From positions 42,997,501 through 43,061,500 of the forward strand of contig CP142458.1 in NCBI GenBank assembly GCA_038049695.1: 64,000 nt of DNA, in the 5' to 3' direction. This document shows, piece after piece, positions 12,394-53,075 of the stretch. The stretch comes from Cinnamomum chago. Its lineage: Eukaryota > Streptophyta > Magnoliopsida > Laurales > Lauraceae. The notes beneath the pieces were generated by a model. That model was not told where the DNA came from and made no database searches. It saw only the letters and a program-made list of their open reading frames with translations. Numbering within the stretch: the stretch's first letter is position 1; the number at the start of each line of letters is the position of its first letter. The position numbers and the translations under genes are program-made.

Positions 12394-12611
12394 GAAGCCA
12401 TGGAGATGGGCAACCTGCAAACACTGATACTCCACTTGTAGCTTGGGGTGCTGGTATTCAGAATCCTAGGCTATTGGTCCACAGTAGCCATTCTGATGAT
12501 GGTGTTCGATTTGTGGATCAGCACAAGCATGATATGCCCACACCTACAGAATGGGGCCTCAGCAGTTTAGAAAGAGTGGATGTTAATCAAGCTGATATTG
12601 CACCTCTCATG
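12394..12611 (+). CDS. PIGN: PIG-N exon (visible exon 1), end of catalytic phosphodiesterase domain
   Basis: A 218-bp exon between acceptor ATAG (ends 12393) and donor GTTTTTTT (from 12612). Reading G|GA from a preceding exon gives SHGDGQPANTDTPLVAWG, then RFVDQHKHDMPTPTEWGL and ERVDVNQADIAPLM, all hallmark stretches of PIG-N/Mcd4. In the family this follows the DHGM motif and closes the alkaline-phosphatase-like active site facing the ER lumen. The family reads GSHGDGHP or GSHGAGHP. Here the second His is Gln (GDGQP), while the GSHG-type His is kept. The frame is open throughout. The preceding exon with DHGMSDK is not found between this exon and the Copia D LTR. Identification is firm; function is uncertain because of the His-to-Gln change and the damaged exon 8. 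Confidence 0.93.
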
Positions 12612-12724
12612 GTTTTTTTCCCATTATCCTTACAACAATTCTATTGTATCTATGAAAGTAAATCATGTTGCTACTCTTTGTTCTTATTGATTTATTTCTG
12701 TTAGTACCCTTTTAACTTTTCTAG

Positions 12725-12799
12725 GCAACTCTCCTTGGTTTACCTTGCCCCACTAACTCCGTTGGAAATTTGCCATTGGGGTATGTTAACTTCAGTGAG
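12725..12799 (+). CDS. PIGN: PIG-N exon (visible exon 2)
   Basis: A 75-bp exon (25 codons) after acceptor CTAG (ends 12724) and before donor GTGCGT (12800). It encodes LLGLPCPTNSVGNLPLGY followed by VNFSE, a strongly conserved PIG-N segment directly downstream of DIAPLM. Phase 0 at both ends fits exon 1 (ends ATG) and exon 3 (starts GCA). The 113-bp intron before and 185-bp intron after are of ordinary plant size, unlike the next one. Confidence 0.93.
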
Positions 12800-12984
12800 G
12801 TGCGTTATATGATTTTTTCCTCTTCTACTAGAGTTTACAGTTTCATTCCAAGATTTTTTATTTTTGACTTTTTTGGAGTATTCTATTTTTAGTTCATAGC
12901 TCTTTATTCTGTTCTTTTATGTTGTGAATTGAGGAGGAATCCAAATACTAAAAACTGATTTGGACTTTATCCTTTCTTTACCAG

Positions 12985-13051
12985 GCAGAAGAAGTTGAGG
13001 CGACACTGGCTAATACAAAACAAGTTCTAAATCAATTTCTCCGCAAGTCAC
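12985..13051 (+). CDS. PIGN: PIG-N exon (visible exon 3)
   Basis: A 67-bp exon after acceptor CCAG (ends 12984). It encodes AEEVEATLANTKQVLNQFL then RKS, matching the family stretch after NLPL. It ends with one base (C) of a split codon before donor GTATCC (13052). That C joins AG at the start of the next exon (35457) to give Gln, as the conserved RKS-x-IKQS reading requires. The intron that follows is about 22.4 kb and filled with mobile elements. Confidence 0.92.
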
Positions 13052-13439
13052 GTATCCTCTGCATAGTCAAAGCCCCTGCTAACATTTTTGTTTTTCCCTT
13101 TCTTTCCTTTGGACAGTAAAGGTTTAAATGCTTAACTGTTAGAAGCATAAATCAATATAACATATTTTTCTGTTGTTTCTAGGAAGTTGGTTACACTTAT
13201 TTTGCTTCTACCAACTAGCAGAGCTAGCAGAAAAACTTATAAATGGTTGATTTCAAGATAAGAACCTCTTCAGTAGGTTCGGAAATGGAACGAAAATTGT
13301 TGCTCAAGAAAAAAAATCATTTTTTAAAAGTTTTAATGATGAGAATTGATAAGTATTTTTAGATATTTTCTATTTTTTCTTACTGATCCAGTTTGGTAGA
13401 TTTCATATTTATAATAGCTGATTGAATTGGTTTCTGATG
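13052..13439 (+). other. Start of the 22.4-kb PIG-N intron
   Basis: AT-rich host intron sequence between the exon 3 donor and the first recognisable LINE sequence. No open frame, repeat or element end was recognised in it. The exact 5' edge of the LINE is uncertain by some tens of bases. Confidence 0.6.
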
Positions 13440-17934: not shown

Positions 17935-18059
17935 TCTAATATACTAAGGGAATGTAGACTCCCTTAGTATGCTGACACCTGTCTGCCTACATGCAGACCC
18001 ACGTCAATAGCATTCTCATTCTCTATGTCATCCCCACTCCCCACTCTTTGTAACTGATA

Positions 18060-19400: not shown

Positions 19401-19745
19401 GGATATCCTAGCAACAACGAGGTCGATAGAGAGAGGGCCAGCACTTAATGTTGCCACCATTTCTCAGTTTTTAAAGATATGGAAATCAAAGGTGGGCCCT
19501 GTCAGCCAAACCATGTTTTAGGAGAGGAATAGAATGCTGATGGTCAATAAAGATTTGTTGATTACAAGTATTGAGGAGCATCTGATTACAAGTAATTAGG
19601 ACGATGTCTCTCACTTACGATGACCGTCGATTTAATGAGGCCCACCAAGGATGAGGAATCGCAGCCATCAGATCCGATGAAACCCCTTTGATTTAGATTG
19701 TATGGATTGATTTTGTGTGAATGCTCAGGTGCGAATTAATATAGT

Positions 19746-21111
19746 GATGATTGTACATGGTTGTCTTTGAATTTGAATTTAGAAACCCCATTTCTCAGTT
19801 TTTAAATATATGGAAATCAAAGGTGGGCCCTGTCGGCCAAACCATCTTTTAGGAGAGGAATAGAATGCCGATGGTCAAACCATCTTTGAATGATCATGAC
19901 TAAATGAGTCAGGTTTTGATATTAAAAAAAAAAAATGGAAAGTTGGTTGGTAGACTGTTCTAATGAGGCCCCACTGATAATCAATCACAATCATCCAAAT
20001 ACTCATCCATCTTGATAAGTACTTTTGTACTACTGATATTAATACTCATCCATGTCAAACGGCAAACACTATTTTAGATGAGGCACAGAGCCAAATCACC
20101 ATGCCACTTTCTTTTTAGTCATGATCCATATATAGATCGAATGACCCACCAATTGGATGGTTGAGATTTCAATGGATCCATGCAAATTAATTAACCGAAG
20201 TAGTGCAAAAGTACTTAGATCAAGATGGATGAGTATTTGGATGATTGTGATTGATTATCAGTGGGTCCGCACACATTGTAGATCTTGGATGCATCATAAC
20301 TCAAACACAAGGGTGTTGGGCATGAAAATTAACAGTACTTGATGAAGAGTAAATGATCAAGAGTACCAATTAGGTTAATCATATCATAATCATCGGCCCA
20401 TCATGAGATGATGATTGTACATGGTTGTCTTTGAATTTGATTTTAGAAACCCCATTTCTCAGTTTTTAAAGATATGAAAATCAAAGGTGGGCCCTGTCGG
20501 CCAAACCATCTTTTAGAAGAGGAGTAGAATGCCGATGGTCAAACCATCTTTGAATGATCATGAATGATCAAACCATCTTTTAAATGAGTCAGGTTTCGAT
20601 ATTAAAAAAATAAATAAATGGAAAGTTGGTTGGCAGACTGTTCTAATGAGGCCCCACTGATATTAATGAGGCCCCATTGATAATCAATCACAATCATCCA
20701 AATACTCATCCATCTTGACCTAAGTACTTTTGCACTACTGATATTAATACTCATCCATGTCAAATGGCAAACACTGTTTTAGATGAGGCACAGAGCCAAA
20801 TCACCATGCCACTTTCTTTTAGCCATGATCCATATATAGATCGAATGACCCACCAATTGGATGGTTGAGATTTCAATGGATCCATGCAAATTAATTAACC
20901 CAAGTAGTGCAAAAGTACTTAGATCAAGATGGATGAGTATTTGGATGATTGTGATTGATTATCAGTGGGTCTGCACACATTGTAGATCTTGGATTAAGCA
21001 TAGCCCAAACACAAGGGTATTGGGCATGAAAATTAACAGTACTTGATGAAGAGTAAATGATCAAGAGTACCAATTAGGTTAATCATATCATAATCATCGG
21101 CCCATCATCAG
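19746..21111 (+). repeat. Tandem duplication, two units of about 0.66-0.70 kb, each with inverted arms
   Basis: Unit 1 (19746-20407) and unit 2 (20408-21111) both begin GATGATTGTACATGGTTG and end near CATCGGCCCATCAT. They match closely, apart from short extra copies in unit 2. A third partial match to the CCATTTCTCAG region lies at 19455-19545. Within each unit about 65-bp inverted arms face each other (unit 1: 19969-20033 and 20200-20265, starting CCACTGATAATCAATCACAA), so each unit carries a MITE-like hairpin. Short open frames of 61 codons in the two units are identical shadows of the duplication. Confidence 0.85.
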
Positions 21112-21282: not shown

Positions 21283-24200
21283 TAGATTGTCAAATGGGTC
21301 AGTGGGTCATGGTCCAATGGGTCAGTGGGTCACAACCCATGGCAGAAAAGGCCCAACTTGTGGGTCAAAACAAGCATCGATTGTACAGCTATGTATTTTA
21401 TTTCCTGCCTTATTAGGAGATCTAATTAGAATAGAATTAGAATAGAAAGATTGTAATTTAGCTAGTTGCCTCAATTCCTGTAACTCTTATAGCAACTTGT
21501 ATCTATATAATCAAAGAATGAGACCCTCAAAGGGATCATCGAATTCACAGAGAATATTGTCTCTTCTTCCATTGCTGCCTTTCACATGGTATCAGAGCTA
21601 TATGTGTCTGAGCCATCTTCCAAGTGTTGGAAGTTGTCATAGTCTCTGAGAGACTCTCTGGGTATTTTTCTTCATCTTCCAAGCATTGGAAGTCGTCAGA
21701 TCAACGTGTGATCAGAAGTGGCCCACCCTAGATCAACATTAGTAAGCCAAACCATTGCAACCAATCTGGTCGTCTGCTTCCTCTGGTGATTGAGGACATT
21801 GGTTGAGGATTTCTTCACTCAGATCAAGGATCTGTGCTCTGCAGAGGCATCCCGTGGCTGTTTCTTCATCTGATCAACTGGTGGCCCACCTACGATCATC
21901 TCACAGTCCCCAAGTTTCACTCCAGACTTGGTCGACCATCCTTCCTGGTTATTTTAGAGATTTTTTCAGCAATTTTCAGTGAGCAGAGGTAGGCGTTTTG
22001 CTCCTTCTTGTGGTTAATCACTTTCTTTAAATAGTTTTTATCACCACCGTACAAAATCTTTGATTCAGATCCGATCTGGATAAAACTTGGACTGCTGGAA
22101 AGGAAATTCTCTCCTAGTCTCTAGCTACTGATCTGATCACCATTCAGATCTTTCTGTGGGACCCACGTCAGGCTATAACTCCAATTTTTTTGGTCGCCTG
22201 GGCTGTTTTTTTGTGCAATTTTTGCACTCTGTGGTCTGTTCTACTTGGACTCCTCTGTTACTGCATCTGCTATCTTCTATTGTTGCTGTGTGCTGTCTTA
22301 AGGGATCTGATAAGATTACTGACATGGATAAACATGAAATTACATTGATCAAATTTAATGGGAAAAATTATACTTCCTGGTCCTATCAACTTCAAGTATA
22401 TCTTGAAGGTAAGGAGATGTGGGGCCTAGTTGAAGGATGGGATCCACGACCTAAGGAAGATGAGAAAAAAATTCTTTCTTGGAATACCAAAGATGCCAAG
22501 ATCAAAACATGGATTCTTGGTTCTGTGGAACCACAATATATCTTGAACCTCAAACCGTACAAGACATCCAAGGAGATGTGGGAATATCTGAAACAAGTGT
22601 ATCACCAAGGGAATTCTGCCCGACAATACCAACTTGAACTGGAGATTGCTCAATATTCCCAAGGCACTTCTTCCATCCAGGACTATTATACGGGTTTTCT
22701 TAATCTGTGGGCAGAGTATGATGAAATCAAATACCTCCATGTCTCTGAGGCAGCTCTTTCTGAAATACAACAATTACAGGCAACTTCTCATCGAGATCAG
22801 TTTCTCATGAAATTGAGATCTGAATATGAGATCATTCGTTCTAATCTGATGAGCCGAGTTCCATCTCCATCCCTGAATGAGTGCCTTCATGAACTCTTGC
22901 GAGAGGAACAGAGTCAGCTTACTCAGCATGCTTTGAAGCAACAGTTCTCAGGAACCTCTTCTAGTGTTGCATATCCTGCCATTGCCAGTTACAACCCGGG
23001 TGTTTCCCACAGTCCTGCGTCTACTGCTAAAGGACAAACCCCTGCACGGGATCTCAGCAAAATCCAATGTTTTGGCTGTAAGAGTTATGGACACTATGCT
23101 TCACAGTGTAAGACCAAGTTTTGTAATTACTGCAAATCCAATGGTCACGTCATTAGTGATTGCAGAAGGCGACCACAGAATCGCACTCCACGGGCATATC
23201 ATGTCAACGCTGCTGATGCTACTACTTCCAGTGACAGTTCTTCAACACCGGTCATGCCTTCACCACCTACTGCCTCCAATACTGCTCCTCAGATCACCCC
23301 TGAGCTTATTCAACAAATGATCATAAATGCCTTCTCTGCACTGGGCATTTCAGGTAACCACCAATCCTCCTCCTCCATATGGTTTATTGATTCTGGAGCT
23401 TCCAATCACATGACCTCCTTCCCCTCTCATCTTACTAACCTGCAACCATACAATGGCAATTTGCAAGTTCATACTGCTGATGGTCAAAAGCTTCCCATTA
23501 CAGCCACTGGTGATATCATTCATTCATTACCTCTCACAAATGTCTTTCTCTCTCCACACCTCACCACGAATCTCCTGTCTGTTGGACAACTTGTTGATGA
23601 TAATTGTGATGTTTCCTTTTCTCGCTCTGGTTGTGTTGTGCAGGATCCAGTGTCGGGGATGGTGATCGCGAAGGGGCCTAAGTGTGGACGCTTGTTTCCT
23701 CTTGTTATGCCTATCTCTCAGAATAACCAGATTTCTGCTTTTTCATGTTTTTCTCCGCAAGATGTTTGGAGGCTCTGGCAAAATAGATTAGGCCATCCTC
23801 ATTCAAAACTGTTATCTTTGATGTTAAACACTGGTAGTCTTAATAAAAATGCAATTTCTTTTAGTCGTATTTCTGATGAGTGTTCTGTTTGCAAACTTGG
23901 AAAAAGCAAAGTTCTTCCCTTTCCCTCAAACTCTACTATGGCTTCTAATTGCTTTGACATTATTCATAGTGATGTCTGGGGGATTACTCCGGTAATCTCT
24001 CACACACAGTTCAAATATTTTGTTACTTTTATTGATGATCATAGTAGATTCACATGGGTATATTTCTTGCACACTAAATCTGAAGTCTTCGATGTTTTTC
24101 AAAATGGGTCAGTGGGTCACAACCCATGGCAGAAAAGGCCCAACTTGTGGGTCAAAACAAGCATCGATTGTACAGCTATGTATTTTATTTCCTGCCTTAT

Positions 24201-24378
24201 TAGGAGATCTAATTAGAATAGAATTAGAATAGAAAGATTGTAATTTAGCTAGTTGCCTCAATTCCTGTAACTCTTATAGCAACTTGTATCTATATAATCA
24301 AAGAATGAGACCCTCAAAGGGATCATCGAATTCACAGAGAATATTGTCTCTTCTTCCATTGCTGCCTTTCACATAGAT
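21283..24378 (+). mobile_element. Young Ty1/Copia copy with identical LTR sequence and TAGAT target repeats
   Basis: A Copia element on the + strand in the Helitron. The 5' LTR is 21288-21586, the primer site TGGTATCAGAGCT starts at 21587, and the 3' LTR portion is 24102-24373. Target repeats TAGAT flank it (21283-21287, 24374-24378). Over the shared 272 bp the LTRs look identical, so insertion was recent, probably well under a million years ago. The reading frame 22156-24216 holds gag (MDKHEITLIKFNGKNYTSWS at 22324), CCHC knuckles (CFGCKSYGHYASQC, CNYCKSNGHVISDC), protease (WFIDSGASNHMT), pre-integrase (LWQNRLGHPHSKLL) and the start of integrase (DIIHSDVWG, FIDDHSRFTW). RT and RNase H are not present between the LTRs. 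It is therefore broken (one large loss) and can only be non-autonomous. Confidence 0.95.
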
Positions 24379-24869: not shown

Positions 24870-25220
24870 AATGGAAGGTTGGAAAAGCTTTTGGAATCCT
24901 TTAGTTCTGCCTAGAGTGTTAGCTTTTTGTTGGTTTGGAAGATGGCATATCTCACTATTTATAAGCTGAAAAGAAGAAATCATATCATAGTCAGTGGTTG
25001 TCCTGTGTATTTACAAGATAAGGAAGCAGTGCATCACCTATTGATTCACTGTAGATTTGCTTATTATGTTTGGTTGGTTGTTTTTAATATGTTGGCTTTG
25101 CAGTGGGTTATATCCAGACATGTCGATGATCTATTTTGCCAATGGAGGGTGGGGAGCAAGTTTTTTCATGGTAAGATTCTTTGGAAGTTAGTAATGTATG
25201 CTACACTTTGGAAGTTATAG
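24870..25220 (+). pseudogene. LINE E zf-RVT domain
   Basis: LINE sequence resumes after the Helitron: a WNPLVLPRVLAFCW-like stretch, then ISLFISLKRRN / KLKRRNHIIVSGCPVYLQ and HHLLIHCRFAYYVW, the CxxC...HxxxxC pattern of zf-RVT. It continues the frame broken off at FSVKF before 17838. Small frame changes near 24940 and 25200 are visible. The tail runs to about 25471, where a hAT element interrupts it. Confidence 0.82.
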
Positions 25221-26006: not shown

Positions 26007-26014
26007 GTTATAAT

Positions 26015-38700: not shown

Positions 38701-38818
38701 TTTACACAAACATAGACATAGACACATGGCTCTACTATTATATTTGGATCATTGCACTTCTCAATCTCTTCTGTGGTTGTCTACTGCATCTTGATCGTCT
38801 TTTTTGTTTCTGGTGCAG
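35786..38818 (+). other. 3.0-kb PIG-N intron, no recognised element
   Basis: AT-rich sequence with microsatellite-like patches (GGAGGAGGAGG on the minus strand near 38057, TGTGTGTGTG near 38475) and many short A or T runs. Texture such as GGGATGAATCGATCGTATCGTG (36455-36475) may be an old MITE. No TIR pair, target repeat or coding similarity could be established. The acceptor is GGTGCAG at 38812-38818. Confidence 0.5.
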
Positions 38819-39052
38819 ATATACATATATGGATGCCTGTTGATGGGGCCCGTTTCCATTCTACTCTTTGTGGAGAATGCTTCTCTTCTTTACCATGCTT
38901 ATGTTGCAATGACTGTGTTTCTTTGGACTCACATATTTAGTTATTTTACATTTATAAAAACTCTATGGAGATATGTATCTGGGAGGAAGTTCAGTTATAT
39001 CTTGGAGCTTCTAGCTTACTCTGCTGTTTCGATTTGTACTCTTGAACTCCTG
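38819..39052 (+). CDS. PIGN: PIG-N exon (visible exon 5), membrane segment
   Basis: A 234-bp exon (78 codons), phase 0 at both ends, acceptor GTGCAG and donor GTATAT. It encodes IYIYGCLLMGPVSILLFVEN, LLYHAYVAMTVFLWTHIFS, LWRYVSGRKFSYILELLA and SAVSICTLELL. The AYVAMTVFLWT and WRYxxGRK motifs are characteristic of the PIG-N membrane domain, with two or three predicted helices. No lesion was seen. Confidence 0.95.
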
Positions 39053-39145
39053 GTATATCAGCCTTGACCTACTATCACATTCGAGCCACCTACTGTACTA
39101 GATATGCAGATTGAAAATTTTGTCTCATCTGTTACCTTGATGCAG

Positions 39146-39333
39146 GTAGCTAGCTTCTTTGAAAGGATGCTCTACACTTGGTGTTTCCTGATTTTGGGGG
39201 TTGTAGCTGCTCTATATGTTTTTCTCTCAATTCCTGGGCAGCTGTTTATTCCGACCTTTATATGGTCTACTTGTTGGTTTTTGTCAATGTTCACATTAAT
39301 GCCAGCAGAAATCCCTGATAATACTCACTTGGT
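39146..39333 (+). CDS. PIGN: PIG-N exon (visible exon 6), membrane segment
   Basis: A 188-bp exon separated from exon 5 by a 93-bp intron. The acceptor is GATGCAG (ends 39145). The donor is taken as GTAAGA at 39334, leaving two bases (GT) of a split Val codon, which fits T at the start of exon 7. It encodes FFERMLYTWCFLILGVVAAL, then CWFLSMFTLMPAEIPDNTHL. LYTWCFL and FTLMPAEIPDN are family signatures. The frame is open. A 13.3-kb intron follows. Confidence 0.95.
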
Positions 39334-40029
39334 GTAAGACTCGCAGTTGACTTGTTCTAATTTTTTTTCTTCGGTAGTGTTACATAAAGATGTGATATAC
39401 CATATATGGCTGAAGGCTTAGATGTTTATTGTCCTTTACACAAATTTTCACTAATTAAGTTTTTTTTCTTTTTTTATTTGAATGTGTCTGTCCGTTCTTA
39501 TTTCATTCTCTCTATTTTCACATATTGCTTTTAGCTCTGTATCACTTGAATAGCCCATTCCATCTGTATTGTGAATGCTAGTTAGCTTATATGCATGATG
39601 TTAGAGATTATGTGGTGAAGAAGCGGATCTCAAATGACAGATTTGTTGCCCATAGATGAGATCTTGAACTGAGATCCCAAACAGGTATATAAGCTTAGGC
39701 GGAAGGTTTCGGCAAATAGTATTTAGACCTTAATCCTTGGAAAAATCAAATCTAAGTCTAAGAAATCAAGGAAAGAATAAAATTGGAGATGAAAAAAGAG
39801 AGTTTTGAAAGTAGTTGAAGAAGATTAGTGATCGTCCTTACCAGGGTTGGCGGCCAGCCGAATATATTTATATTAATATAATTTTTTTAATTAAAAATAC
39901 CACATTTATGTTTCTCATAATTACAAATTAGTACCAGAGTTTACATAAATTACAAATAAGTCTTCTGCTGACTCTCAAACTCCCTTTCAAGCTAATGCAT
40001 ATACACGGCTTATAATGAACATCAAATAA
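39334..40029 (+). other. Start of the 13.3-kb PIG-N intron
   Basis: AT-rich intron sequence. The part from about 39880 to 40029 (AATTAAAAATACCACATTTA to AACATCAAATAACTG) adjoins Copia RNase H sequence and may be its degraded LTR. No primer site or target repeat was found, and nothing else is supported. Confidence 0.45.
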
Positions 40030-40860
40030 CTGCTTCTTGGTTGCTTCCTTGTGAGAAAATCTGCTGACTGATCCTTGTATGCGTTTACTTGAGCGTCATC
40101 TCTTTCTTGTTAACTTTTTTCTTTTTATTATTATTATTTTTTGGATAAAGTGACAATCACTTCAATGTGCTTCATTTGCTCTTGATAAACTGACTTTGAA
40201 CAAATATGATGTGCTGTTGTACTGTCACAAATACAACAACAGTGGACCATTACATATAAATCCCAACTCTTGCAACCGAACATGTAGCCACTACAATTAA
40301 ATTGCCCACTGAGCAACCGAACATCTCTTTATATTTTGTTTCTAAGGTTGATCTTGCTACTACTGGCTGATTTTTGCTCTTCCATGAATCAAGATTACCA
40401 CCAATTAGAGTGCGATTACGTGTAGTAGATTTTCTGTCAACTTTGAACCTGCCTAATCAACTTCATTATACGCTTGTACATTCAAATTTCCATGAATAGA
40501 ATATAGACTTGTTCTGGAGATTTCATCTGATATTTCAGAATTCTATAAACTACATTAAGATGATTCATACAAGTAGCACACATAAACTGACAGTGTGATG
40601 CATCTGGCATTATAGTCAAATACATCAATTTTCCAACTAACTTTGGAAAGCACTGACACTATAATGTAACTCATTGATTCCACACTTATGTTGTGATTCT
40701 GCTCTTTAGGAGTATTGTAATCTACATCCGAGGATATGCATTGAAGAGCATAGTTTCCTATGGACATGAGTTGTGCACTCTGGTATAGAGACAGAGGGAC
40801 CCTACTGGTACCCATTGTGTAATCTTGTAAAAAGGAGTCACCACTAAATTATATGGGAAA
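40030..40860 (-). mobile_element. Ty1/Copia remnant (RT tail and RNase H)
   Basis: Minus-strand readings resemble the end of Copia pol. One is CDSTTAHHICSKSVYQEQMK followed by HIEVIV (40240-40150), which matches the RNase H stretch CDNxSAxxIxxNPVxHxRTKHIEV. Upstream (40820-40560) is SRVPLSLYQSAQLMSIGN with YVCYLYES-like text from the RT-RNase H connection. Highly decayed with many breaks. LTRs were not delimited. Confidence 0.6.
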
Positions 40861-41006
40861 TGAGATTATTGTAATTAGATTATATTTCCTCTTGAAGGGG
40901 TTAGATTTTTAAACTAATTTTCCTCTTGGCTTATCCTTTGTTGCTTATTTATAATTATTTAAGTGATTATACACATGTATTTATGATTAGTGATTGATTA
41001 TAATTA

Positions 41007-42435
41007 GAGGATTTTACCCCAAAAAACACTTTATTTGAGCATAGGGACCGAAACAGACAAATTAGCGAAATATGCACCAAATAGGTCATTTCGCCCAAAA
41101 CCCTTTTTTTTTTTTTACCATTTTTTTCGAGGGCCATGTACGAGTCGAGCCCATAGTGACTCGGACTCGGCTCGGAAGTCATTTTGAACTTGAAGTAAAA
41201 CCTGAAAAAAAAAAAAAAAAAAAAAACAAAAGGGGTCTTTGATAAAAAAATTCTTTAAATAGAGTGGGGAAGGGGGGAGAAACAATTATAAAATTGAAAA
41301 AGGAGAAGACTTTTGGCAGTTTTGGGGGGAAATGAGAGGAGAGAGAAAGGCAGCCCGTGGAGATGGGAGGACTGGAAGAGAGAGAAGACAGCTGTTGATG
41401 TTGTTGTTCTGTTCTGCCTGCTGTAGCTGCTTTTTGCTGCTGCCTGTTGCTCACTGACTGCTACTGCCAGCTTTTCTGCTCACTAGCTGGCTGCTACCAC
41501 CTGCAACACTATTGCTTTGTTGACTGTTGGTACACATTTTCTTTGTTTTTTTTCTGCTTCAAACCTTTATTAGACCCATACAGCAGCAGCATCAACTTCT
41601 TCCTCTTCTTATATTTCCTTTTTTTTTTAGCATTGCAAAGGGACTTGGCCGAGTCCCATGCGACTCGCCTGAGACTCGGACTCGGGCCTAGGCGAGTCGG
41701 GTCCCGAGTCTGTTCGACCCTCATTTTATGTGTTGAGGGTTGACGTCGACCCTGGGCAAGCAGAAAAATCAGTTTTCCTTATCTTCCTTCTTTCTCTCTC
41801 CCCCAGAACCAATCCAATGATGGAAAAATTCCCCATCGCCAGGTATAACAGAACCATCGTCAGCCCTCAGTTGCATGTTCTTATCCTTTTTTTTGTTCGA
41901 TGTTGCTTAGGAGGCTCTATCTTACTCATGTGTTCACTCGGTTTTGGTTTGCTCACATTCAAGCTGTGTAGGTCTGTAATTGTGCGGTAGTTTGGGCCAT
42001 TCATTCAATCGCATGAACCACCATTCAGTTTGTGAAGACACAGACATGCACTAAGATTTTCCATCATTTTTGAGGGATTCACAGAGAGCTCTCTGCTATC
42101 AACCAAATGGCAATGTCCCCGAATTGGTCAGGCATAAAGATTTCCTCATTCCAGAATAGCACAACTCCAAATAGGCCCCAAAGATTGTTTTTCCCATCAT
42201 CTGGATTGGGTTTGGGGAAGAGAGGAAGAAGGAAGAAAAGGAAAATTGTTTTTTCTACCTGCCCAGGGTCGGCGTCGACCCTCAACACATAAAATGAGGG
42301 TCGATATCGGCCCTAAAAAAAAATGGTAAAAAAGAAAAGGGTTTTTGGGCGAAATGCCCTATTTGGTGCATAGTTCGCTAAATTGTTTGTTTCAGTCCTA
42401 TGGCCAAATAAAGTGTTTTTTCGGGTAAAATCCTC
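41007..42435. mobile_element. Mutator-like non-autonomous element, about 240-bp TIRs, 9-bp TSD
   Basis: The target duplication TTATAATTA (40998-41006 and 42436-42444) is perfect. The terminal inverted repeats begin GAGGATTTTACCC. The outer part, 41007-41133, pairs with 42310-42435 (CACTTTATTTG, GCACCAAATAGG, TTTCGCCCAAAA shared). The inner part, 41714-41827, pairs with 42190-42305 (CGACCCTCATTTTATGTG, CGACCCTGGGC shared). The left TIR is split by a separate 0.58-kb insertion at 41134-41713. Long TIRs with a 9-bp TSD are diagnostic for Mutator-like elements. No transposase frame is present. The arms have diverged by roughly 10-15%, so the insertion is old. Confidence 0.9.
41134..41713. mobile_element. 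Insertion in the MULE TIR, GAGTCGG-word palindromic element
   Basis: It interrupts the left TIR of the MULE, as comparison with the intact right TIR shows. Its two ends are rich in GAGTCGG/CCGACTC words (TACGAGTCGAGCCC and GACTCGGACTCGG at the left; GACTCGGACTCGGGCC and GGCGAGTCGGGTCCCG at the right). The centre holds an A-run (41203-41226) and CTGCTGCTG-like sequence. It has the same texture as the other word-dense elements here. A clean 8-bp target repeat was not found, so the hAT assignment is by analogy. Confidence 0.6.
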
Positions 42436-42444
42436 TTATAATTA

Positions 42445-44529
42445 TTATAAGCTAGGCCCCTTAGTTCTAGGAGTTCTTATATATATAGAGGATGGGACCC
42501 AACTTCTTATTCATGAAGGAGGTTGACACTTAGGAGTCTTATGCTAGGAATAGGACTCCAAAATCTGGTAGAACTTCGCACGACAATGTTCATAGGAGGC
42601 TTGGCTCAAACAACTATTTATAAGGCCTTTTCCCTCCCATTCTTCTCACATACAAAACAACCAAGCCTTCCTCAAATTATAGAATTAGAGATCAGCTGTA
42701 GAAGCAGTGAGATTAGTGAATCGAGACCTCTAGTGGATCCACCAGGTGAAAAGAACTTCCGATCTACTTGTGTATGAATCTAAATTCCTGTTTTTGCTAT
42801 TGTATATCCTGATTTCTCTAGTTTATGATGAGACCTTAAAAGTTGAGGATAATCCAATGGTTTTTCTAGTTTTTGCACTGTTACTGTGTCACGACAGTAT
42901 TGTCGACAATTCGGTCGATATGTTAATGTGTAAATCCCAAATCATGGTCCCAAAATCTGAAGATTAAACAAGAAGTACAAATCAGAAGTGGGTTTTTCCA
43001 ATTTCAAGTTGACGGGGAGCAGAATGGTCGTCTTTGATTGTGGGACCACGTGGCCCACCTGATGGGCAATCTGGACTGTGGATCTGGTTGGAGACTCAGG
43101 GTTGACCAGGGTGGTGCTGGACCCACATGGAGTGGGACCCATTTAGCCCACCATCCAGCTTCTTCTATTACATGAGGGTGTTACTGTAGAAGGGTTTTCT
43201 TCATATAAATACATATGGGCCTAGGAGGCCACCTGATGATATATCTAAACCGCAGATCTTAAAGTGGGCCCTGGGCAATCTTGGAGATCAGGTCCCATCA
43301 TGGATTGGGCCATTGGGACCCACTGTCCAACACACCCAGTAGTTCTAGGTGTGAACTCCCTGTTTCCAGAAGACAGTCTTCTTGAATGAGTTCTGTTTCG
43401 ATGGATATTGCCTGTTATGCGTTTCAAAAATTGCAATCAGGCCCTATTAGTTTAAGGAAATACATTAGACTCTCTTTCAACTTCCGTACTATAGGGACAT
43501 ATGAAATAAAAAACTATTGATGATTGGAATGTTTATGGATGATCAACAGTGACTAATGTACAGTGAATGGTATCCTTTAACATGTAATTACTTTATAAAG
43601 TATGGTCAAATATGAACATTAATCTGATGAATTTGATATGATATTCTCATATTAATTGATTATTGATTTAAGTTGTATTGTGGGCTTCAATGTTGTTGAA
43701 CCATGATGAATGGAGATAATAATGTGTCTCATCCTATCAAGATAATTGGGATATTATCCTTACGATAGGTACCAAGATGGCAAGGGAATGGGGCTGATGA
43801 AACCCGGAAACATCAGTAAGGACAAAATCTCAAATTATCATGGTAACAATACCGGAAAATATTATTAAAAGTTGTATTCAAAATATTGTGGACCAACCCA
43901 TTGGACACCCCTAGATGCACCATCACATGAAGCTAAGAGATGGATTCCTGTCATGACTTTTAGGCCATCTGCGTAATTTCTCTGACTTTCAGTTTCACTT
44001 TCCTTGGCTTATAGGTCACCAGTTCGATTTACTATAGTTTGTTCCTTATGTTTCAAGAGGCTGCGTAATTTCTCTGACTTTTATGTCAGTTGTAATTACT
44101 TTGGCTATAGTTGTTTCTTTTAAATTACAAAGACTATTTTGGGAATTGTGTGTTTTTATTTTTATTTATTGAACATTATTATTGGATTGGATAATCTTTT
44201 AATTACAAATTCGGATTTAGGCAAAAGCCTGGGTAATTATGCTGTAATGATTTGATTTATGTTGTGGTCATGCTACTTATTGGTTACGGTGCGGAATCCG
44301 ATAGGGCCCCGGATTCCAGGTCATTACGTAACCGTACCACAATGAAGACCTTCACATTTGATGTCTGAATTTGATGATCTTTATATGGATCTCGTACATC
44401 CCGACAAGACTAAGCCATATGTTAAAGATCTCCAAGTTCTGGCATTGTATGCCCCTTGATAACTAGGTCGCACTGTTGCTGATTTTTTCCTAGAAATTAC
44501 GACTCTACCCCTTAATGACAGCTGGCTAT
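42445..44529. other. Unassigned intron sequence with LTR-like and GGGCCCAC-rich patches
   Basis: Parts look like a degraded LTR: TATA-like CTATTTATAAGG at 42612-42624 followed by a transcribed-looking stretch, and GGAATCCGATAGGGCCCCGG near 44292. A patch at 43020-43360 is rich in GTGGGACC/GGGCCC. A short frame at 44362-44460 reads MSEFDDLYMDLVHPDKTKPY and continues in altered frames as GRTVADFFLEITTLPLND; it was not recognised. No element ends could be fixed. Confidence 0.35.
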
Positions 44530-44534
44530 CCCTT

Positions 44535-46326
44535 TGGTATGCACCAAGCAACTTAGAAATAAGCTACTAGTATGCATACAATTAAAACTCGCAAGCACAC
44601 AAGATCACTCTATGTAATGTAGTGAATTGTAAGTACGAGGTCGATCCCACGAAGACTTGTGATAAAACATTGTCAAAAGCAACTAAAAATCAGAATATTA
44701 AAAAAAAACAATTGAATGATGGAAAGTTGAATTAAACTATCTAAAATAACCAAAAGCTAAATGGAAAGTAACCTAACAAGAATACTACTAGTATTAGAAT
44801 TGAAAAACAGTAATAATGAATGAACTAGGGTTTCATCTACTCCCCTAACCAATCCTATGCATGTCCCTTATTATCTTTTAATAAAAAAATCAGAATTATT
44901 AGTGACATCTATCAACCTAGACCATGGCATATGCGTCTAGATTACTATTCCCCTAAACCTAATTCATGAGTGGCATGCTACATGCATTGTTCATTATGAT
45001 GCAAAAACTGAGCATGACATATGTCCTAGTCAAAACAAACATAATGCATAAAACAATGGGAAAGATAAATGCATGAGTCTAATCATAACATATACTTAGA
45101 TTATTCATTGTTCTAAACCCTAGATGCTTAACATGAAGATCAATCAAAATTAAGTTAGCTACTCTTAAAATTAATTGAACATGGCATGGTTGGCATGGCA
45201 TATACACAACTCATCAATTAAAAACATGGTTTAGAATCTCAACTAATAAAAATGAAATCTGAATTAAAAGATCCCAAGACAGACTACATAGAACTAGGCT
45301 AGGGTTTCAACTACACCCTAGCCCTAAAAAGTTTAAAGTCATAGAAGGAACTTAAAAATTAAAGTCATAGAAGGAACTCTGAAGAATGAAGAAGAAGGAA
45401 GAATTCGGCCAGCAGCTTGTTCCCCTTTTCCTCTAAAAGCTCTCCAAAATATGCTTCAAAGATGGCTTCAAAGGTGCTGTACGGCTGCTGGAATTATGGG
45501 ATGATGAATGGCTGATTTGATGGCTGGACGTGGCTGGGTTGTTGGCTGATGGTGTGCTTGGACGTCCAGCAGCTTGCTTCTTTATATATTATTGCAACAG
45601 CCCCTTTTAGCAAGTAGTTCCCTTGTATGATTCGATCTCCAACTTTGTTAACAATTTTGTTTCCTAATTAGATTGAATTAGGAGTCTTCTTTCTTATTTA
45701 GAAAAACTTTCTAAATCTGGTCCCACTTATATCTTCTTGACAATTCCTCACATGGACCCACAAATCTGAGTTTTAATTGTGAAGAATCAAATCTGAAACT
45801 TTAGACATAAAAGTGGGCCCATATGGTACGTGTACAATGATTGCGGAACCCCCTTCTTGAACTTCTATCTTGGCTTGAACTCTTCTTTTAACTTTCCTTA
45901 TTTTTCTCCTTTTTCTTCTCTATTCTTGGACTCCACTTTTAACTTGAATAAGACTTTCTAATTTCTGAAATTCTTCATTTTGCAATGGATGTGGGCCCCC
46001 TTTTGGGTGTGTACTTTGATTGGGAATTTCTTCTTTTTTCTGCTTTCTTTTGCTTTCCTTTTTTATTATAACATGAGTCTCCAACACGTTCCTTCTAGTT
46101 TGAATTGTAAGTTCCCAAAGAATTAGAAATTAGTCTTGAAATCTGAAATAGCTTGGATGGGACCCACCTTGGTCCTTCTTTGGGCATGATTTCTTCTCTT
46201 TTTATCTCCTTTTGACCTTCACATAAAAATTAACCAAAGCTATGTAAAATCAAATAAAACAACTATGACTAGCACTAGATCATTCAAATATTAGGGCTCA
46301 AATTGTAAACAATTAAGCATCTATCA
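44535..46326. mobile_element. Solo LTR (1.79 kb), second copy of the 27750 family, TSD CCCTT
   Basis: It begins TGGTATGCACCAAGCAAC, ends AATTAAGCATCTATCA and is flanked by CCCTT (44530-44534, 46327-46331). It is collinear with 27750-29592 over its whole length, with roughly nine in ten bases alike by eye, plus scattered indels. No internal element region remains. Independent target repeats show these are two separate insertions, not a segmental duplication. Confidence 0.83.
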
Positions 46327-46331
46327 CCCTT

Positions 46332-47614
46332 CTAATCCCTAATTGACTAAAGAGTACCAATCCTACTAAAAGTTAGGGATTCTAGGTGCATACTAGGTTG
46401 TTAATGGAAGTTCCACAAGAGGTGCAATTGACAAGTGCTATGTAAAGAGAGATTCCTGCTCATGGTCATGCAAGCAAAACAAGAGAGTGCACATCATCAT
46501 CAAGGCTAATTGCAAGTAAATTAACGGTTATGAGTACCAAGCCTATGTCTTTGGTTGTCGTTTACAATTGAGACACAATACCATTCAACACTGATCCCGT
46601 AGGATTCAGGATGTCTGATGCTATGTTCTTCGTGCTTCTGAAGGTAATTGCCATCCAAAATCTTGCGTTGTCATACCCTTGACTTAGTATTGCCTTGCCC
46701 ATGCTTCCTAGACAACTCTCTGAACATCACTACATCTAGTCTTACACAGACATCATTGGTCATGTACATGGATCCCCAAGCTACACCAAATCCTGAGTCC
46801 AATGTGTCCGGGCCACAAGAAACCAAAAGTTCCTCAATTAGCAAGGTAATAGTTGAATTGCAGTGGAGTGACTGAATTGGCAGTAGCCGATTCGCTCGGA
46901 CCAATACCCATGTGGCCTAAAGGGCGGCCAAAATGTATAGAACTAAAATCGCTGGGGCCGAAATGACCTATATTTCTCTGATCATTTTTTGTGATTGAAG
47001 GTTGCATTTTGTCCTAAAAATTATAATGCTTATATTTTCCTACACTTCTTGTAAAGAGAATAGAGAGGTCCATCGACAGAGCGCACTTATAGGCCCAATT
47101 GTATATTTAACCATATCCCCACCACGTAGAAATGAGTTAGCATAGCATTAGACAAACAGTTCATGTTTATAAATGATTTTAATTGAACCATAGTTGTAGC
47201 CTCAATTGGCACACAACTTACTATAAATTCAATTGTAGACCTAGAAGAGGGTACAACGAATTCCTCAATTCTTTTCTTTTCCTTTCTACTACTATGTTTA
47301 TCACTTATATATATATATATATAAAACCTTAGGTGAGTACCGGCACTCATAATAAGATGAGCATCGTGTGCCTAAATACCCATTGGGGCCTACCTGGTGA
47401 TCCATCCGAGTGGCCATAAAACAAGGACCCCCGTAAAAGTAAATGATCCTGAGTTTGGCACCCATCCAAATGGATTGCACCATTGGATTGATTGTGTACT
47501 TTTTTTGGATAGTGAAAACTTGTCAGTCGTTGATCGAGTGGTTGAGATTATGATTCAAGCTTCTGTCACCATACACAGGTGTTTTGTAGGTTTTTTTTTT
47601 TTCTTTGGGCGGTG
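46332..47614. other. Unassigned PIG-N intron sequence
   Basis: No known domain was found. Frames near 46648-46875 (MPSKILRCHTLDLVLPCPCF and onward) and the overlapping minus frame have no recognised relatives. A TA microsatellite lies at about 47309-47324. From about 47385 the sequence takes on the CATCCRAATGGATTGCACC texture shared with 48120-48160. Confidence 0.4.
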
Positions 47615-48260
47615 GCAGGGGTCTATGATGCACAGATACAGCAAGGACAGGCCATACATGGTAGAGACATGGATTTTACACAAAAGGTGAAGTATCGGAT
47701 ACGATACGACACGATACGTTGCCAATTTTGAAGTATCCGTGCATCATAGGCAGGGGTTGTGGATCTATCAATCCCTCTGTTCCCATCCCAACTGGGCCCC
47801 ACAAGAAATAGTGCTTAGGTTAGGGGGCCCATATATATAAATTATCCTATGCACACTCCATTGTGGGGCCCACTTGATGACCCATCTAAATAGATGATCA
47901 GATACACTAGTAGAATTAGGGGCAGGGGGTGCCAAATTCCCCCCCACGCCTCGCTCCCCCCTAAAAAAAAATCCTTTTAGAAAGCTCTATGAAGTTCTTA
48001 AATTTTTAAATATGCCCCCTCTCCTCTCTCTCCAAGATTTTTTGTTTTTTGTATGTAGTGGCCACCCCTAATCACATGCACACAGAGACCTTTTGCTAGT
48101 CACCGATCCACTTTTTCTACGCCCATCCGAATGGACTGCACGATTGGAAGGGTTGAAACTTGTGGGCCATTGATCAAGGGGTTAGGATAATCATGTGAGG
48201 CCCCGCCATCGTAAACTACTAGGACCCACCTAGTTGGATCGAAACCAACCCCCCCCCCCC
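47385..48260. repeat. Diverged GGGGCCCAC / CATCC-AATGG-TGCAC short repeats
   Basis: Two blocks share CCCATCC-AATGGA-TGCAC-ATTGGA, then TTGATCRAG and GTTxxGATxATxATG. They are 47455-47560 and 48120-48205. GTGGGGCCCACTTGATGACC occurs at 47863-47882, and related words at 47390 and 48202. They look like copies of an old MITE family. The 127-bp hAT MITE at 47623 is a separate, later insertion among them. The ends of the old repeats were not defined. Confidence 0.5.
47623..47749. mobile_element. 127-bp hAT MITE with perfect 8-bp TSD
   Basis: TIRs CTATGATGCACAGATAC (left) and CTATGATGCACGGATAC (minus strand, right) differ at one base. The target duplication GCAGGGGT (47615-47622, 47750-47757) is perfect. 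The right half repeats GTATCGGATACGATACGACA-like words. Its TIR resembles that of the 535-bp element at 25472 (AAGCACGGACAC). Too small to code. A recent-looking, very compact element. Confidence 0.92.
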
Positions 48261-48270
48261 CCCCCCCCCC
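48249..48270. repeat. Poly-C run, 22 bp
   Basis: A homopolymer run of 22 C, comparable to the 17-bp C run at 29271-29287. The exact length may be unreliable, because such runs are prone to sequencing and assembly error. Confidence 0.95.
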
Positions 48271-48879
48271 AAATTCCTATCCCTTGCCGGGCCCTATAGT
48301 GAGGGGGCGTATGTAATCCTCCATGTGCACCTCACACATAGGATAAGGCCTCACTCCACATACGCACACTTTTATTTATTTATTTTCCGAAACGATACTC
48401 CTAAATGTGTCACCTAAATTGGCTGATACATTTCATCTTGGAGCCTAACAAAAGTGGTGTCTGAAAAAAAATTGACAACTATGCCTCCAAGCAAAGTCTC
48501 AAGCCAATTTGTTACATATTGGCTTTGACTTTTCCTCACGATCTGCGATTCAGTGTTTTCCAGGAAAGTTTTGTGCTAAAGGATGCAAAGCAACTTTCCC
48601 TTATCTCCTTTTAGAGCAAGAAACAACAACAAAAAGAAAAGGAAAAGGAAAAAAAAAATTGTTAAGGTGTAGTTGGACATCGTGTGTAATGGTTGTTTGT
48701 TTCGGCCGATATGGCTTATAATCACGGCCTAACACATGATATTTTAAATCATGCCATAATCAGGTTAGTACTGATTTGTTTGTATAACACTATAACACCA
48801 GCCTTTCTTACTATTGTCTGGCAGAAGATCATTGTTGTCCGATCATATGTTATGATGCCAACTTAATAAAATGAAGATT

Positions 48880-51800
48880 AAAATGACAGAAATATGGATC
48901 AAGGAAGATGGATAGGGTTGAAATGAAGCTATATTCATTAGTAGAACATGCTTTTTTCGGAGAATTAGGGTGGTGGAGGTGAGGAAAGTATTGAAACATA
49001 TGAAGATAGGAAAGGCTACGAGTCCAAATGACATTTCGACAGAGGCTTGGAAATGGTTAGGAGAAGTTGGAGGGATTTGGTTAAACTAGGCTCTTCAATA
49101 AGATACTAATGACAAAGAAAGTGCCGGATGAATGGAGAAGAAGTGTTGTAATACCAATACATAAGAACAAGGGTGATATACAAAACTGTACAAACTATCA
49201 TGGGATTAAACTTATGAGTCAGACTATGAAGCTATGGGGGAGAGTAATGGAGCAAAGACTTAGACAGAAGACCAAGATATCTGAATACTAGTTTGGTATT
49301 ATGCTAGGGAGGCTAACTATGGAAGCTATCTTCTCAGTTAGGCAATTAATGGAAAAATATCAAGCAAAAAGGAAAAAATTGCATATGATCTTCATCGATC
49401 TAGAAATAGCTTAAGACACGGTACCTAAAGATTTAATTTGGTGGGTTTTAATTAAAAGGAATCTTCCAAGATGTTATATTGAAATTATTGAAGACATATG
49501 GAGCGGTAACGAGTGTGAGAACTACATATGGAGAGACAAGTGTGCTCCTAGTGACCATTTATTTGCATCTGGGTCAGCCCTAAGCCCATATCTCTTTGCG
49601 GTGATTATGGATGAGTGAACTGCTCATATTCAAGAGGGGGTATCTTGGCGTATGTTGTTTGGCTGTTTGCAGATAATATAGTGTTAGTGGATGAATAAAG
49701 AGAAGTTGTGAATGCAAAATTTGAGAGATAATGAGAGGCTTTAGAATCCAATGGCTTTAAAATAAGACATTCAAATACTGAATATATGGATTGACACTTT
49801 AGTGGACATATACAAAGATCTGAAATTGTTGTGAGAATTGCAGCCCAGGGATACCATAAACAGACTCATTCTATTACCTTGGCTTGATAATTAGTAAGGA
49901 TGGGGAGATTGATGAAGATATCGAATGTAGGATAGAAGCCGTATGGTTGAAGTGGAGACTTGCTTTTGGAGTACTTTATGACTAACGATTGCCAACAAGA
50001 TTGAATGGAAAATCTTACAGGACAACGATCGGACTAGGTGTGACTCATGGAGTAGAATGTTGGCCAATCAAGAAGCATAAATGGTTGTGACAAACATGAG
50101 AATGTTGAGGTGGATGTCTAGTAAAACTAGGAAGGATAAACTTAGAAATGAGCTCTTTCGAGAGCATTTAAGGGTAGCATCCATAGGGGATAAAATCAGA
50201 GAAACTCATTTCAGATGGTTTGGGCATGTCCAATGCAACTGACAATGACGCAAGTAAGGACAAGTTTGGCTATCCAGGTTGATGGCCTACCAAGGGGAAG
50301 GGGTAGGCTGAATCAAGGATGAAACTAGCGGTAGCGGCCCGCCGCCAAACCGCTACGAAGTGGGCGCTACGTAGCGGCGTAGTGGTGCGATTTGAAAAAA
50401 TTGCCCAAAAAATCTGAAAAAATTCCAGAAAATCCAGAAAATTGTAAAATGAAAGAAAATGTGGTTCTTTTGCAAAAGTAAGAAAGAAAATGGGGCGTAG
50501 TGGTGCCCTCATTATGAGGCCCTACATCGCTATCTAAATAGAAAATAGTAGTAATGATTTTTTTTTCCACATATATTTGTGTTTGTAATCAAACAATGTC
50601 ATCAAAATATTATCACCATTGTTGCTTAGAATATCACATTTCTGAGTTCTAGTTTGGAATGTATATATATAGTTTAAAACTTTTTGTTAAAGAAAAAATT
50701 GATTAGGGCCTTAGGTTGAGCCACAATTTCCTATTAGAGAGTAATTTGGTTAGGGTCCTATTTCCTATTAAAAGGAGATTATTTGGTTGCGCCCTATTTC
50801 CTATTAGAGTAAAATTTTGCTAGAGCCTTTCTTCAATTAGAATGAAATTTGTTTAGGACTTTATTTTCAATCAGTGTGAAAGTTGGCTATGTCTCTATTT
50901 CCGGTTAGAGTAAAATTTGATTGAGCTCTATTTCTAATTAGAGTAAAATTTGGCTAAGCCACTAATTTTTATTAATTTGGCTAAGCCATGATTTTTTCTA
51001 TTTTAATACCTAAGGGGCCCATTTGATTTTTATCTATAACTTTCATAAGGTGGGCCACTGTGGGGCCCATTTAATCTTTATCTATAACTTTCATAAGGTG
51101 GGCCATAGTGGGGCCCATTTAATCTTTATTTATATCTTTCATAAGGTGAGCCCAATGTGGGGCCCATAGTTACCCTACTTAGTAAATATTGGAGGGACCA
51201 AAAGAGGGGCTTTTAATGCCCTAATTCTTTTCCCAAAACAGCAGGCTCAAGAGTTATAGGGAAAAGAAAAAACAAAAGGGGCTTTTAATGCCCTAATTCT
51301 TTTCCCAAAATAGCATGCTCAAGAGTTATAGGGAAAAGAATATTTCTTTTCCCAAAACAACAGGCTCAAGAGTTATAGGGATAAGAAAAAACAAGAGGGG
51401 CTTTTAATGCCCTAATTCTTTTCCCAAAACAGCAAGGCTCAAGAAAGACAGAGAAGAGGGGAAGGAAAAGAGGAAGAAAGAAAAAAAAATGAAGAAGAAA
51501 AAGAGAAGAGGAGACAGTGCTGCCTGGCAGTGATATTGTGGCTGGTGCTGCTGTGTGATGATGATGCTGCTGCTGCTGCATGGTGCTCCTGCTGCTGCAA
51601 GATGCTGCTTCCAGGTATGTTTCTATAGTTGCTGTCCCTTTTTTTTTTTTTTCCTTTTTCCTCCTCTTCATCTCCCTTAGCCAACAAAGGCTTTTTTTTT
51701 TTTTTTTACATTTGATTGTTTGTAGCGGCCGATACATAACGTATCGGCCGCTACGTGTGCGATGGCCGATAAATCGACCGTAGCGTGGCGGTGGCCACTA

Positions 51801-52001
51801 CTACTGCCGATATATCGGCCGCTACGTAGATATTTTCATCCATGGGCCGAATAAGATGTGGATGGAAGTAGTAAAAATCGATCTGAAGAAGTGCAACGTA
51901 TTTTGGGATTTGGCTCAAGATAGATCGGAATGGAGAAACGGAATTCATGTAGCCGACCACAGCATAAGGCTTTGATTTTGATGATGATGATGATGATGAT
52001 A
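48880..52001 (+). mobile_element. RTE-type LINE, 5'-truncated, split by a hAT element
   Basis: A plant RTE-clade LINE on the + strand. From about 48960 it reads KVLKHMKIGKATSPNDISTE, then KKVPDEWRRSVVIPIHKNKG (49112-49171) and TNYHGIKLMSQTMKLWGRVM, the RT start of RTE. Next come FIDLEIA (KAYD expected, altered), a GSALSPYLFAVIMDE-like stretch (49570-49610), the catalytic box as LFADNIVLVDE (second Asp to Asn) near 49663, and LRWFGHVQ-like text at 50210. After the hAT insertion (50314-51844 plus duplication) the C-terminus resumes: KMWMEVVKIDLKKCNVFWDL, SEWRNGIHVAD. It ends in (TGA)n at 51976-52001, the simple-repeat tail typical of RTE. The endonuclease is missing, and there are many stops and shifts, so it is dead. 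Confidence 0.88.
50314..51844. mobile_element. hAT-type element made largely of tandem arrays, inserted in the RTE LINE
   Basis: TIRs CAAGGATGAAAC (left) and CATGGATGAAAA (minus strand, right). The 8-bp target duplication is GGCTGAAT (50306-50313) and GGCCGAAT (51845-51852), one mismatch. The RTE reading frame resumes right after it. Both subterminal regions hold GGCCGATA/TAGCGGC words (50320-50395, 51725-51830). The interior comprises a 34-37 bp degenerate array (about 50700-50995, roughly seven units), a 48-bp array (51014-51165, three units) and a roughly 75-85 bp array (51206-51440, about three units), then CTGCTGCTG and T-runs. No transposase. Confidence 0.86.
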
Positions 52002-52607
52002 TGCAATCCCTAATCTATGTAATAAGCCAATGCAATTCTTATTATATACAACTAGCCGCCTGACAGATGAGTCAATGACAAAAAATTCGCTGGTTGCCAT
52101 CCCATCTTCTTCCCATCCCATCTTCTTCCTAGTCTACTACAACTTTATGGTGATTAGTGTTCTGTTGTGCTCGCTTAATGTTATCTGGTTGCTTGTGTTG
52201 GTGTTGTTTCTACTAGTTCCTATTGCATTGACCTTGTTTAGGATACTCTCGCTTGGTTAATTTTCTTTTGGTATGGTTGGTAGTGCTGCTCGTGAGCTGT
52301 TTCCTTTATCATTCTTTGGAGTTCTTCTTGTCTTGATCCTACTCATCTTCTTGATGCTTGCTTTGACGTGTTGAGGCTTGGGCCTTGCTGTGCTTTATTA
52401 TCATTTTTTTTTAGTTTTGTTATTTATCTGACATTTCTTTACTTAGGGACAAGGAGCATGAGTCTTGGTTTTTACCAAACACTTCTGCCTTGTTTTACCA
52501 AAAAAAAAAGAGGCAATACAACTAGTTGGCTTAGTAATCTTACTTCTAACTATACTTTTGTTTCAAGTTTGTTTATATCTATTAACTAATCGATACTTTT
52601 ACTGTAG
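52002..52607 (+). other. End of the 13.3-kb PIG-N intron
   Basis: T-rich host intron between the RTE tail and the exon 7 acceptor CTGTAG (52602-52607). The hydrophobic frame 52030-52260 reflects T-richness and matches no part of PIG-N. A duplicated ATCCCATCTTCTTCC occurs at 52100-52130. Confidence 0.55.
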
Positions 52608-52749
52608 TGTTGCAAGTGGAGCTATAATTATCTTGATAGGAATTGCTGCCAGGTGGTTTGATTCAAGTACTAAAAGGAATAATTATTGGCTACGCATCAG
52701 CAATTACCATAAACAAAAGTCTAGGTTTCCAATGCTCTTTCATTTACAG
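52608..52749 (+). CDS. PIGN: PIG-N exon (visible exon 7), membrane segment
   Basis: A 142-bp exon. The first T completes the Val codon begun in exon 6, then come ASGAIIILIGIAARWFDSST and SRFPMLFHLQ. AARW-D and FPMLFH-Q are conserved in plant PIG-N. It ends on a complete codon before donor GTTAGT (52750). Open throughout. The NYWLRISNYHKQK stretch corresponds to the family's NKYWLSIS-HETKK loop. Confidence 0.93.
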
Positions 52750-52862
52750 GTTAGTAATTGAAATTGGTTTCTCAGATCCTGAATCTTATATGTGGAGTTT
52801 ATTTGAGTTAGTGGTTCTTTATGACATCTGAATCTAATGGATCTTCTATGCTAAGTGACCAG

Positions 52863-53075
52863 ATTCTCATAGTTGCGCTATCATCAGGGATGGTGTGGTT
52901 GTCTTCTTCTCGCAGAGCACAGGAACAAGAACTTCTCATGTTGCACCAGTTGTTAAACTGGTTATTAGTTGGTTACTCTCCAGACTCCTCTTTTCTTATA
53001 TTTTCTTTCTCATCTTTTTCTGTTGCATTTGCTATGAAGTATACAGAAGTTTACTATCTTCACATTCTTTGGATC
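52863..53075 (+). pseudogene. PIGN: PIG-N exon (visible exon 8), intact start and damaged end
   Basis: After acceptor ACCAG (ends 52862) the frame reads ILIVALSSGMVWLSSSRRAQ then EQELLMLHQLLNWLLVG (to about 52973), a good match to plant PIG-N. The family continues with about ten residues (FSMVLPLFS-like) and then LLSRLTSIFLGFAPPFLLLS and IGYEAVFY. Here the LLSRL block appears at once in a different frame (from 52973), followed by a weak ICYEVYRSLLSS match. This suggests loss of roughly 30-40 bases plus a frame change at TTACTCTC, and further small indels. No donor site was found that would make a clean exon end after LLVG. The alternative is that the exon ends early and the rest is chance; the SRL and CYE matches argue against that. 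Confidence 0.75.

Follow-up and report, generated by a model that had tools for sequence, protein, structure and literature searches.

The stretch analysed here comprises 64,000 nucleotides of the Cinnamomum chago genome (GenBank assembly GCA_038049695.1, contig CP142458.1, positions 42,997,501 to 43,061,500 of the forward strand) and is called the window below; it holds eight exons of a plant PIG-N gene, which encodes glycosylphosphatidylinositol (GPI) ethanolamine phosphate transferase 1. An initial annotation, made from the letters of the sequence, had attributed eight scattered open segments with consistent splice phases to one such gene. All eight are present on one strand, in order and in matching phases. 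On the plus strand, these are exon 5 (12394-12611; SHGDG to ADIAPLM, with a TAG|GA acceptor and an ATG|GT donor), exon 6 (12725-12799), exon 7 (12985-13051; phase 1 at its end, followed by a U12-type donor), exon 8 (35457-35785; donor AAA|GTAAGG), exon 9 (38819-39052), exon 10 (39146-39333), exon 11 (52608-52749) and exon 12 (52863-52971; donor G|GTTACT at 52972). The initial annotation had placed the start (12394) and two joins, 13051|35457 and 39333|52608, exactly to the base; its end of the last segment, 52979, lay 8 bases too far. A three-frame reading with Pfam searches on the open pieces revealed matches to PigN (PF04987) at 35420-35797, 38795-39064 and 39068-39334, with E-values of 9.8e-15, 9.6e-8 and 2.1e-8 for exons 8, 9 and 10, respectively. 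Taken individually, the open pieces that cover exons 5, 11 and 12 had no Pfam match.

Splice sites in the window were placed by hand. Spliced together, the eight collinear exons gave 453 codons on one strand with no stop, and the alternative frames contained 24 and 29 stops; all seven introns between them are GT-AG. The resulting protein matched PF04987 in a single stretch over profile positions 2-266 with E 6.5e-49. Searches by tblastn with an approximate, Arabidopsis-like plant PIG-N probe detected seven matches, which together span all eight exons (E 1.5e-6 to 2.2e-39; 42.7-150 bits), and the best match in a control with 20 shuffled probes in the window reached 30 bits. An alignment of the probe with the window exons showed 59% identity over 452 columns; its sole gap is a single residue within exon 8, away from the junctions. 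Extra exons were sought within the window and none was found, the remaining ones lying outside. A sequence search of the PDB detected no relative at E up to 1, and scanning the window for tRNA genes and Rfam families yielded nothing.

The search for the rest of the gene covered 14 contigs with a total of 1.06 Gb, in which the window is C8:42997501-43061500, and we read 180 kb of flanking sequence on its upstream side and 40 kb on its downstream side (284 kb with the window). Outside the window, probe matches continued collinearly on both sides, without a change of contig or strand. The full model runs from an ATG at window position -77111 (C8:42920389; 77 kb upstream of the window), chosen by position and by the probe, to a stop that ends at 85881 (C8:43083381; 22 kb past the window), and the window holds exons 5-12 only. 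Exons 1-4 lie on the plus strand between -77111 and -17894, with exon 4 (-18187 to -17894) joining 12394 in phase; exons 13-18 follow on the same strand from 79516 to 85881, and exon 13 (79516-79618) resumes the frame in phase. Bases 1-12393, rightly taken as a further intron in the initial annotation, are the 3' part of the 30,287-bp intron 4, which starts at -17893. Bases 52972-64000, which had gone unrecognised as intron, are the 5' part of the 26,544-bp intron 12, which ends at 79515 (both introns on the plus strand). Compared with the extent of 40 kb proposed earlier, the gene is four times longer and spans 163 kb.

The lengths of introns 1 to 17 are 5729, 29404, 23199, 30287, 113, 185, 22405, 3033, 93, 13274, 113, 26544, 100, 777, 100, 204 and 4466 bp, so that six of them measure 13.3-30.3 kb. 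Their ends are GT-AG in 16 of 17 cases; the one GC-AG intron is intron 2 (-70946 to -41543, plus strand; C8:42926554-42955957), which is 29.4 kb long and has the donor AAG|GCAACT. The whole coding sequence has 2967 nt (1.8% of the 163-kb span), a sole stop at its end and a frame that is continuous through all 17 junctions. One further tile of 40 amino acids (aa) of the probe (residues 161-200) matched 61378-61280 on the minus strand with E 6.8e-4, inside a copia-type coding piece; it was rejected as an exon because the exons for these residues sit at -41542 and -18187.

The predicted protein has 988 aa and is identical to the approximate Arabidopsis-like PIG-N probe in 674 of 983 aligned columns (68.6%), with 9 gaps. 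Pfam detected the whole PigN domain (PF04987; profile 2-456 of 456, E 4.3e-123, 411.9 bits with a cut-off of 25.4) and, at residues 178-294, Phosphodiest (PF01663; E 1.1e-9, 38.9 bits with a cut-off of 23); Sulfatase (PF00884) matched under its cut-off with E 3.8e-5. The protein contains the motifs TADHGM and SHGDG, which we take to be metal-binding. It thus resembles the plant orthologue of PIG-N/Mcd4, presumably of the AT3G01380 type, in its complete PigN domain, in its phosphodiesterase-type N-terminal part and in the identity to the probe, and differs in the length of its gene. A genome-wide search for PF04987, with all 31 candidates scored, revealed three matches, all at the PIG-N locus: two fall on window exons (8 and 9), and the third lies 16.6 kb past the window end. 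The initial annotation had named an intact PIG-N elsewhere as a finding that would speak against it; no duplicate was seen in this search, whose sensitivity to single exons is limited, since the gene's other exons went unreported.

Intron 7 (13052-35456, plus strand; 22,405 bp) displays U12-type signals at both ends and encloses a nest of retroelements; its U12-type look is new beyond the initial annotation. The 5' splice site GTATCCTC (13052-13059) agrees in 8/8 positions with [AG]TATCCTY, and the branch site TTTCTTGAC (35437-35445) in 9/9 with TTYCTTRAY, which places the branch A at 35444, 12 nt before the last base of the intron. We assume both consensus sequences and the distance range to be those of the minor spliceosome. 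Pyrimidines ahead of the acceptor number 11 of 20, the fewest of the seven window introns, and none of the remaining 16 introns exceeds 5/8 at the donor or 7/9 at the branch (A 8-21 nt from the intron end). Against the background of the window, counted on both strands and with the sites of intron 7 included, the donor motif occurs at 5 of 6237 GT sites and the branch motif at 8-21 nt for 12 of 8069 AG sites. A chance pair of donor and branch is expected about 8e-6 times over the seven window introns and about 2e-5 times over all 17; because of this rarity, exons 7 and 8 can be taken to flank one intron. Searches of the genome for the corresponding RNA genes, in which only the best candidates were scored, revealed at least five places over the gathering score for U6atac and at least one for U12. 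Donor and branch examples of the same form are given in Table 1 of PMC7367187, as far as the excerpt of that paper extends.

Given the exon order, the frame, the splice dinucleotides, the domains, the U12-type motifs and the U12 and U6atac RNA genes observed, we consider it very likely that the scattered pieces are the central part of one intact plant PIG-N gene that apparently exists in a single copy and comprises 18 exons over 162,993 bp, with intron 7 probably removed via U11/U12. The gene would be transcribed as a very long pre-mRNA and then spliced to an ordinary message. Insertions of retroelements and other repeats would have swelled six introns to 13-30 kb and left the exons unbroken, and we infer that such repeats were the main cause of intron growth. 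Ordinary splicing would serve all introns except intron 7, which the U11/U12 minor spliceosome would probably remove across 22.4 kb, as its motifs suggest. The product would combine an N-terminal catalytic part of the phosphodiesterase type with a C-terminal PigN part that crosses the membrane many times. PIG-N enzymes act in the endoplasmic reticulum, where they transfer ethanolamine phosphate onto mannose 1 of GPI precursors, and such a gene is presumably needed.

Several points weigh against this interpretation. Transcription, exon joining and enzyme activity are deduced from the sequence, intron 2 requires a GC donor (GCAACT), and the identity figures were measured against an approximate probe sequence rather than a database entry. 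The call of a single copy relies on a PF04987 search that reported only three of the gene's own exons. The U12-type assignment of intron 7 was made by motif, which does not prove the splicing route, and when a wider range of distances is admitted, two ordinary introns of the window show branch-like matches of 8/9; we discounted these because their distances from the end of the intron, 4 and 5 nt, are too short. Intron 7 could accordingly be a normal U2-type intron that resembles the U12 type by chance, the more so as U2-type introns can start with GTAT, as introns 9 and 17 do here, and motifs alone prove no splicing route. We regard this as improbable in view of the complete donor and branch matches at a fitting distance, which no other intron of the gene attains, and of the few pyrimidines before its acceptor.

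Very improbable, in our view, is a decaying or silenced PIG-N copy with open exons that yields no full transcript, its introns being too long or heterochromatic. The 18 exons with their 988 codons contain neither an internal stop nor a frameshift, and start, stop and splice sites are kept, unlike the LINE-like frame (LINE, long interspersed nuclear element) of intron 7 and most copia-type frames, which are broken; moreover, no other PIG-N matched PF04987, and the gene, judged by its family, is presumably needed. The repeat-rich introns of 13-30 kb would suit such a copy, as would the copia-type element of intron 7, whose identical terminal repeats and open frame of 694 aa suggest a recent insertion. 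A literature search on intron heterochromatin factors gave no result. The pieces might also be several separate genes or dispersed fragments, as a repeat-masking annotation might read six gaps of 13-30 kb, and single genes split at a large intron are described for the grapevine annotation in the excerpt of PMC3058033. The unbroken frame across all 17 junctions, a probe alignment over the window exons whose one single-residue gap falls in exon 8 and at no junction, and the U12-type signals at both ends of the 22.4-kb gap make this hardly credible.

Expansion of plant introns by transposable elements and the gene splitting that results from it are already published, each element of the present case has a precedent, and the PIG-N gene and its growth are ordinary for a large plant genome. 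In grapevine, the excerpted text of PMC3058033 counts 2,697 introns of 3-100 kb with more than 80% repetitive content (low-complexity sequence, simple repeats, long terminal repeat (LTR) elements and LINEs), as well as 188 transcript clusters that each match several annotated genes, with one gene split at a large intron. For Chloranthus, the part of PMC8626473 at hand reports that 876 of 2184 orthologues exceed 20 kb and names LTR elements as the major contributor to long introns. As far as these excerpts show, those cases and the PIG-N gene have in common large introns with many LTR elements and LINEs. The PIG-N gene stands apart in that it alone carries six introns longer than 13 kb, including one of the U12 type.

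The length of intron 7, for an intron of the U12 type, is the least ordinary part of the gene. Genome size correlates with the mean length of U12-type introns as well as with that of U2-type introns (PMC7367187, excerpt), and median lengths of minor and major introns correlate with each other (PMC10639083, excerpt). According to the excerpt of PMC5932401, the U12 introns of plant CBP20 genes (intron 4) measure 76-2733 nt, and longer ones were better spliced in mini-genes. Intron 7 shares with them, on that partial text, the minor-spliceosome motifs and the position as a single such intron among ordinary ones; the CBP20 introns, however, are AT-AC and 76-2733 nt long, whereas intron 7 is GT-AG and, at 22,405 nt, about 8 times as long as the longest of them, in a comparison that extends to the CBP20 family only. 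Our literature search turned up no paper that connects U12-type introns with PIG-N, a result that does not prove absence from print. It is a tentative and rather doubtful idea that a U12-type intron of a single-copy household gene, inflated by transposons to 22.4 kb, is still removed accurately, and that its removal by the minor spliceosome may set the amount of PIG-N and hence GPI anchoring. The intron offers a natural test of whether the plant minor spliceosome can bring together splice sites separated by more than 20 kb. The locus also illustrates how a gene that ought to be simple to annotate can be missed: its coding sequence is divided into 18 pieces, and a gene finder may reject any of its unusual features, namely the six gaps of 13-30 kb, the one GC-AG intron and the one U12-type intron.

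To describe the contents of the introns, stop-to-stop open pieces of at least 64 aa were scanned with Pfam, 146 of 237 in the window: 18 of 61 in 1-12393, 57 of 71 in intron 7, all 8 in intron 8, all 40 in intron 10 and 17 of 47 in 52972-64000. Weak matches to Chibby (E 0.0044) and Rad54_N (E 0.0059) were judged to be chance. Sequence repeated within the 284 kb read makes up 47-48, 73-74, 40-41, 26-27, 29 and 67-68% of introns 2, 3, 4, 7, 10 and 12, respectively, and 0% of the exons; these shares for the introns over 10 kb (26-74%) are lower bounds. The earlier description of the introns as made almost wholly of nested mobile elements is only partly supported: it suits the part of intron 7 that holds the nest, and for intron 10 it is not shown, as no domain of a transposable element was detected there in any of the 40 open pieces.

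In the window part of intron 4, Pfam detected zf-RVT at 3950-4885 on the plus strand, RVT_1 at 6485-7482 on the minus strand and a copia-type gag at 10536-11120 and 1549-1899, also on the minus strand. We infer that the reverse-transcriptase pieces, which lie on both strands, are LINE-like. The same intron contains a pure run of 49 AG dinucleotide units (2605-2702).

Intron 7 harbours a copia-type element of 3.06 kb on the plus strand (21316-24374) with identical terminal repeats of 272 nt. The first of them is followed by GGTATCAGAGC, presumably the primer-site motif. Its one open frame of 694 aa (scanned as 22156-24213) encodes gag, zinc-knuckle, Pol beta-barrel and pre-integrase domains; neither a reverse transcriptase nor an integrase core was detected in it. 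The 100% identity of the terminal repeats was not used as a firm date because no target-site duplication was seen. Downstream lies the 3' end of a LINE-like element (24915-25217, plus strand; zf-RVT profile 37-85, E 6.4e-8), whose 5' part, read by eye and without a Pfam match, is probably located at about 13.4-17.9 kb. Between these two parts lie, besides the copia-type element, a duplicated stretch (19745-21111), and the whole arrangement is a nest. In the same intron, an inverted repeat (31527-31808) with 96-nt arms, 99% complementary, and a 90-nt spacer is perhaps a young fold-back element.

A 1.8-kb repeat is found in intron 7 (27749-29592) and, 80% identical and in the same orientation, in intron 10 (44534-46326). 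Both copies start with TTGGTATGCACC. The idea that they are the ends of one element around exons 8-10 was rejected because of the 80% identity, the unlike flanks and the ordered PIG-N exons between them.

Intron 10 (39334-52607, plus strand; 13,274 bp) has ordinary GTAAGA..TAG ends and consists partly of repeats. A 1.2-kb probe from it revealed at least 44 other matches in the genome, with the best 40 of 3088 candidates scored; nearly all of them fall in bases 507-965 of the query, where the repeat units measure about 130 and about 250 nt. Among the matches listed, the unit of about 130 nt in 47306-47764 was found at 26 places with 85-91% identity and that of about 250 nt at 13 places with 74-80% identity. 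In size, both units are like miniature inverted-repeat transposable elements or short interspersed nuclear elements. Elsewhere in the intron, nested inverted repeats with arms 77-89% complementary span about 1.45 kb (40997-42445) and are perhaps a DNA transposon.

The window part of intron 12 contains copia-type pieces on both strands. Pfam detected RVT_2 at 59810-60688 and integrase-side and gag domains at 61327-62727 on the minus strand, as well as gag at 55184, rve at 56718 and SH3 at 57026 on the plus strand (span 55184-57460). A further copia-type coding piece on the minus strand (53811-54479) was recognised by eye only, without a Pfam match. The pieces from 53811 to 62727 are probably one element inserted in another.

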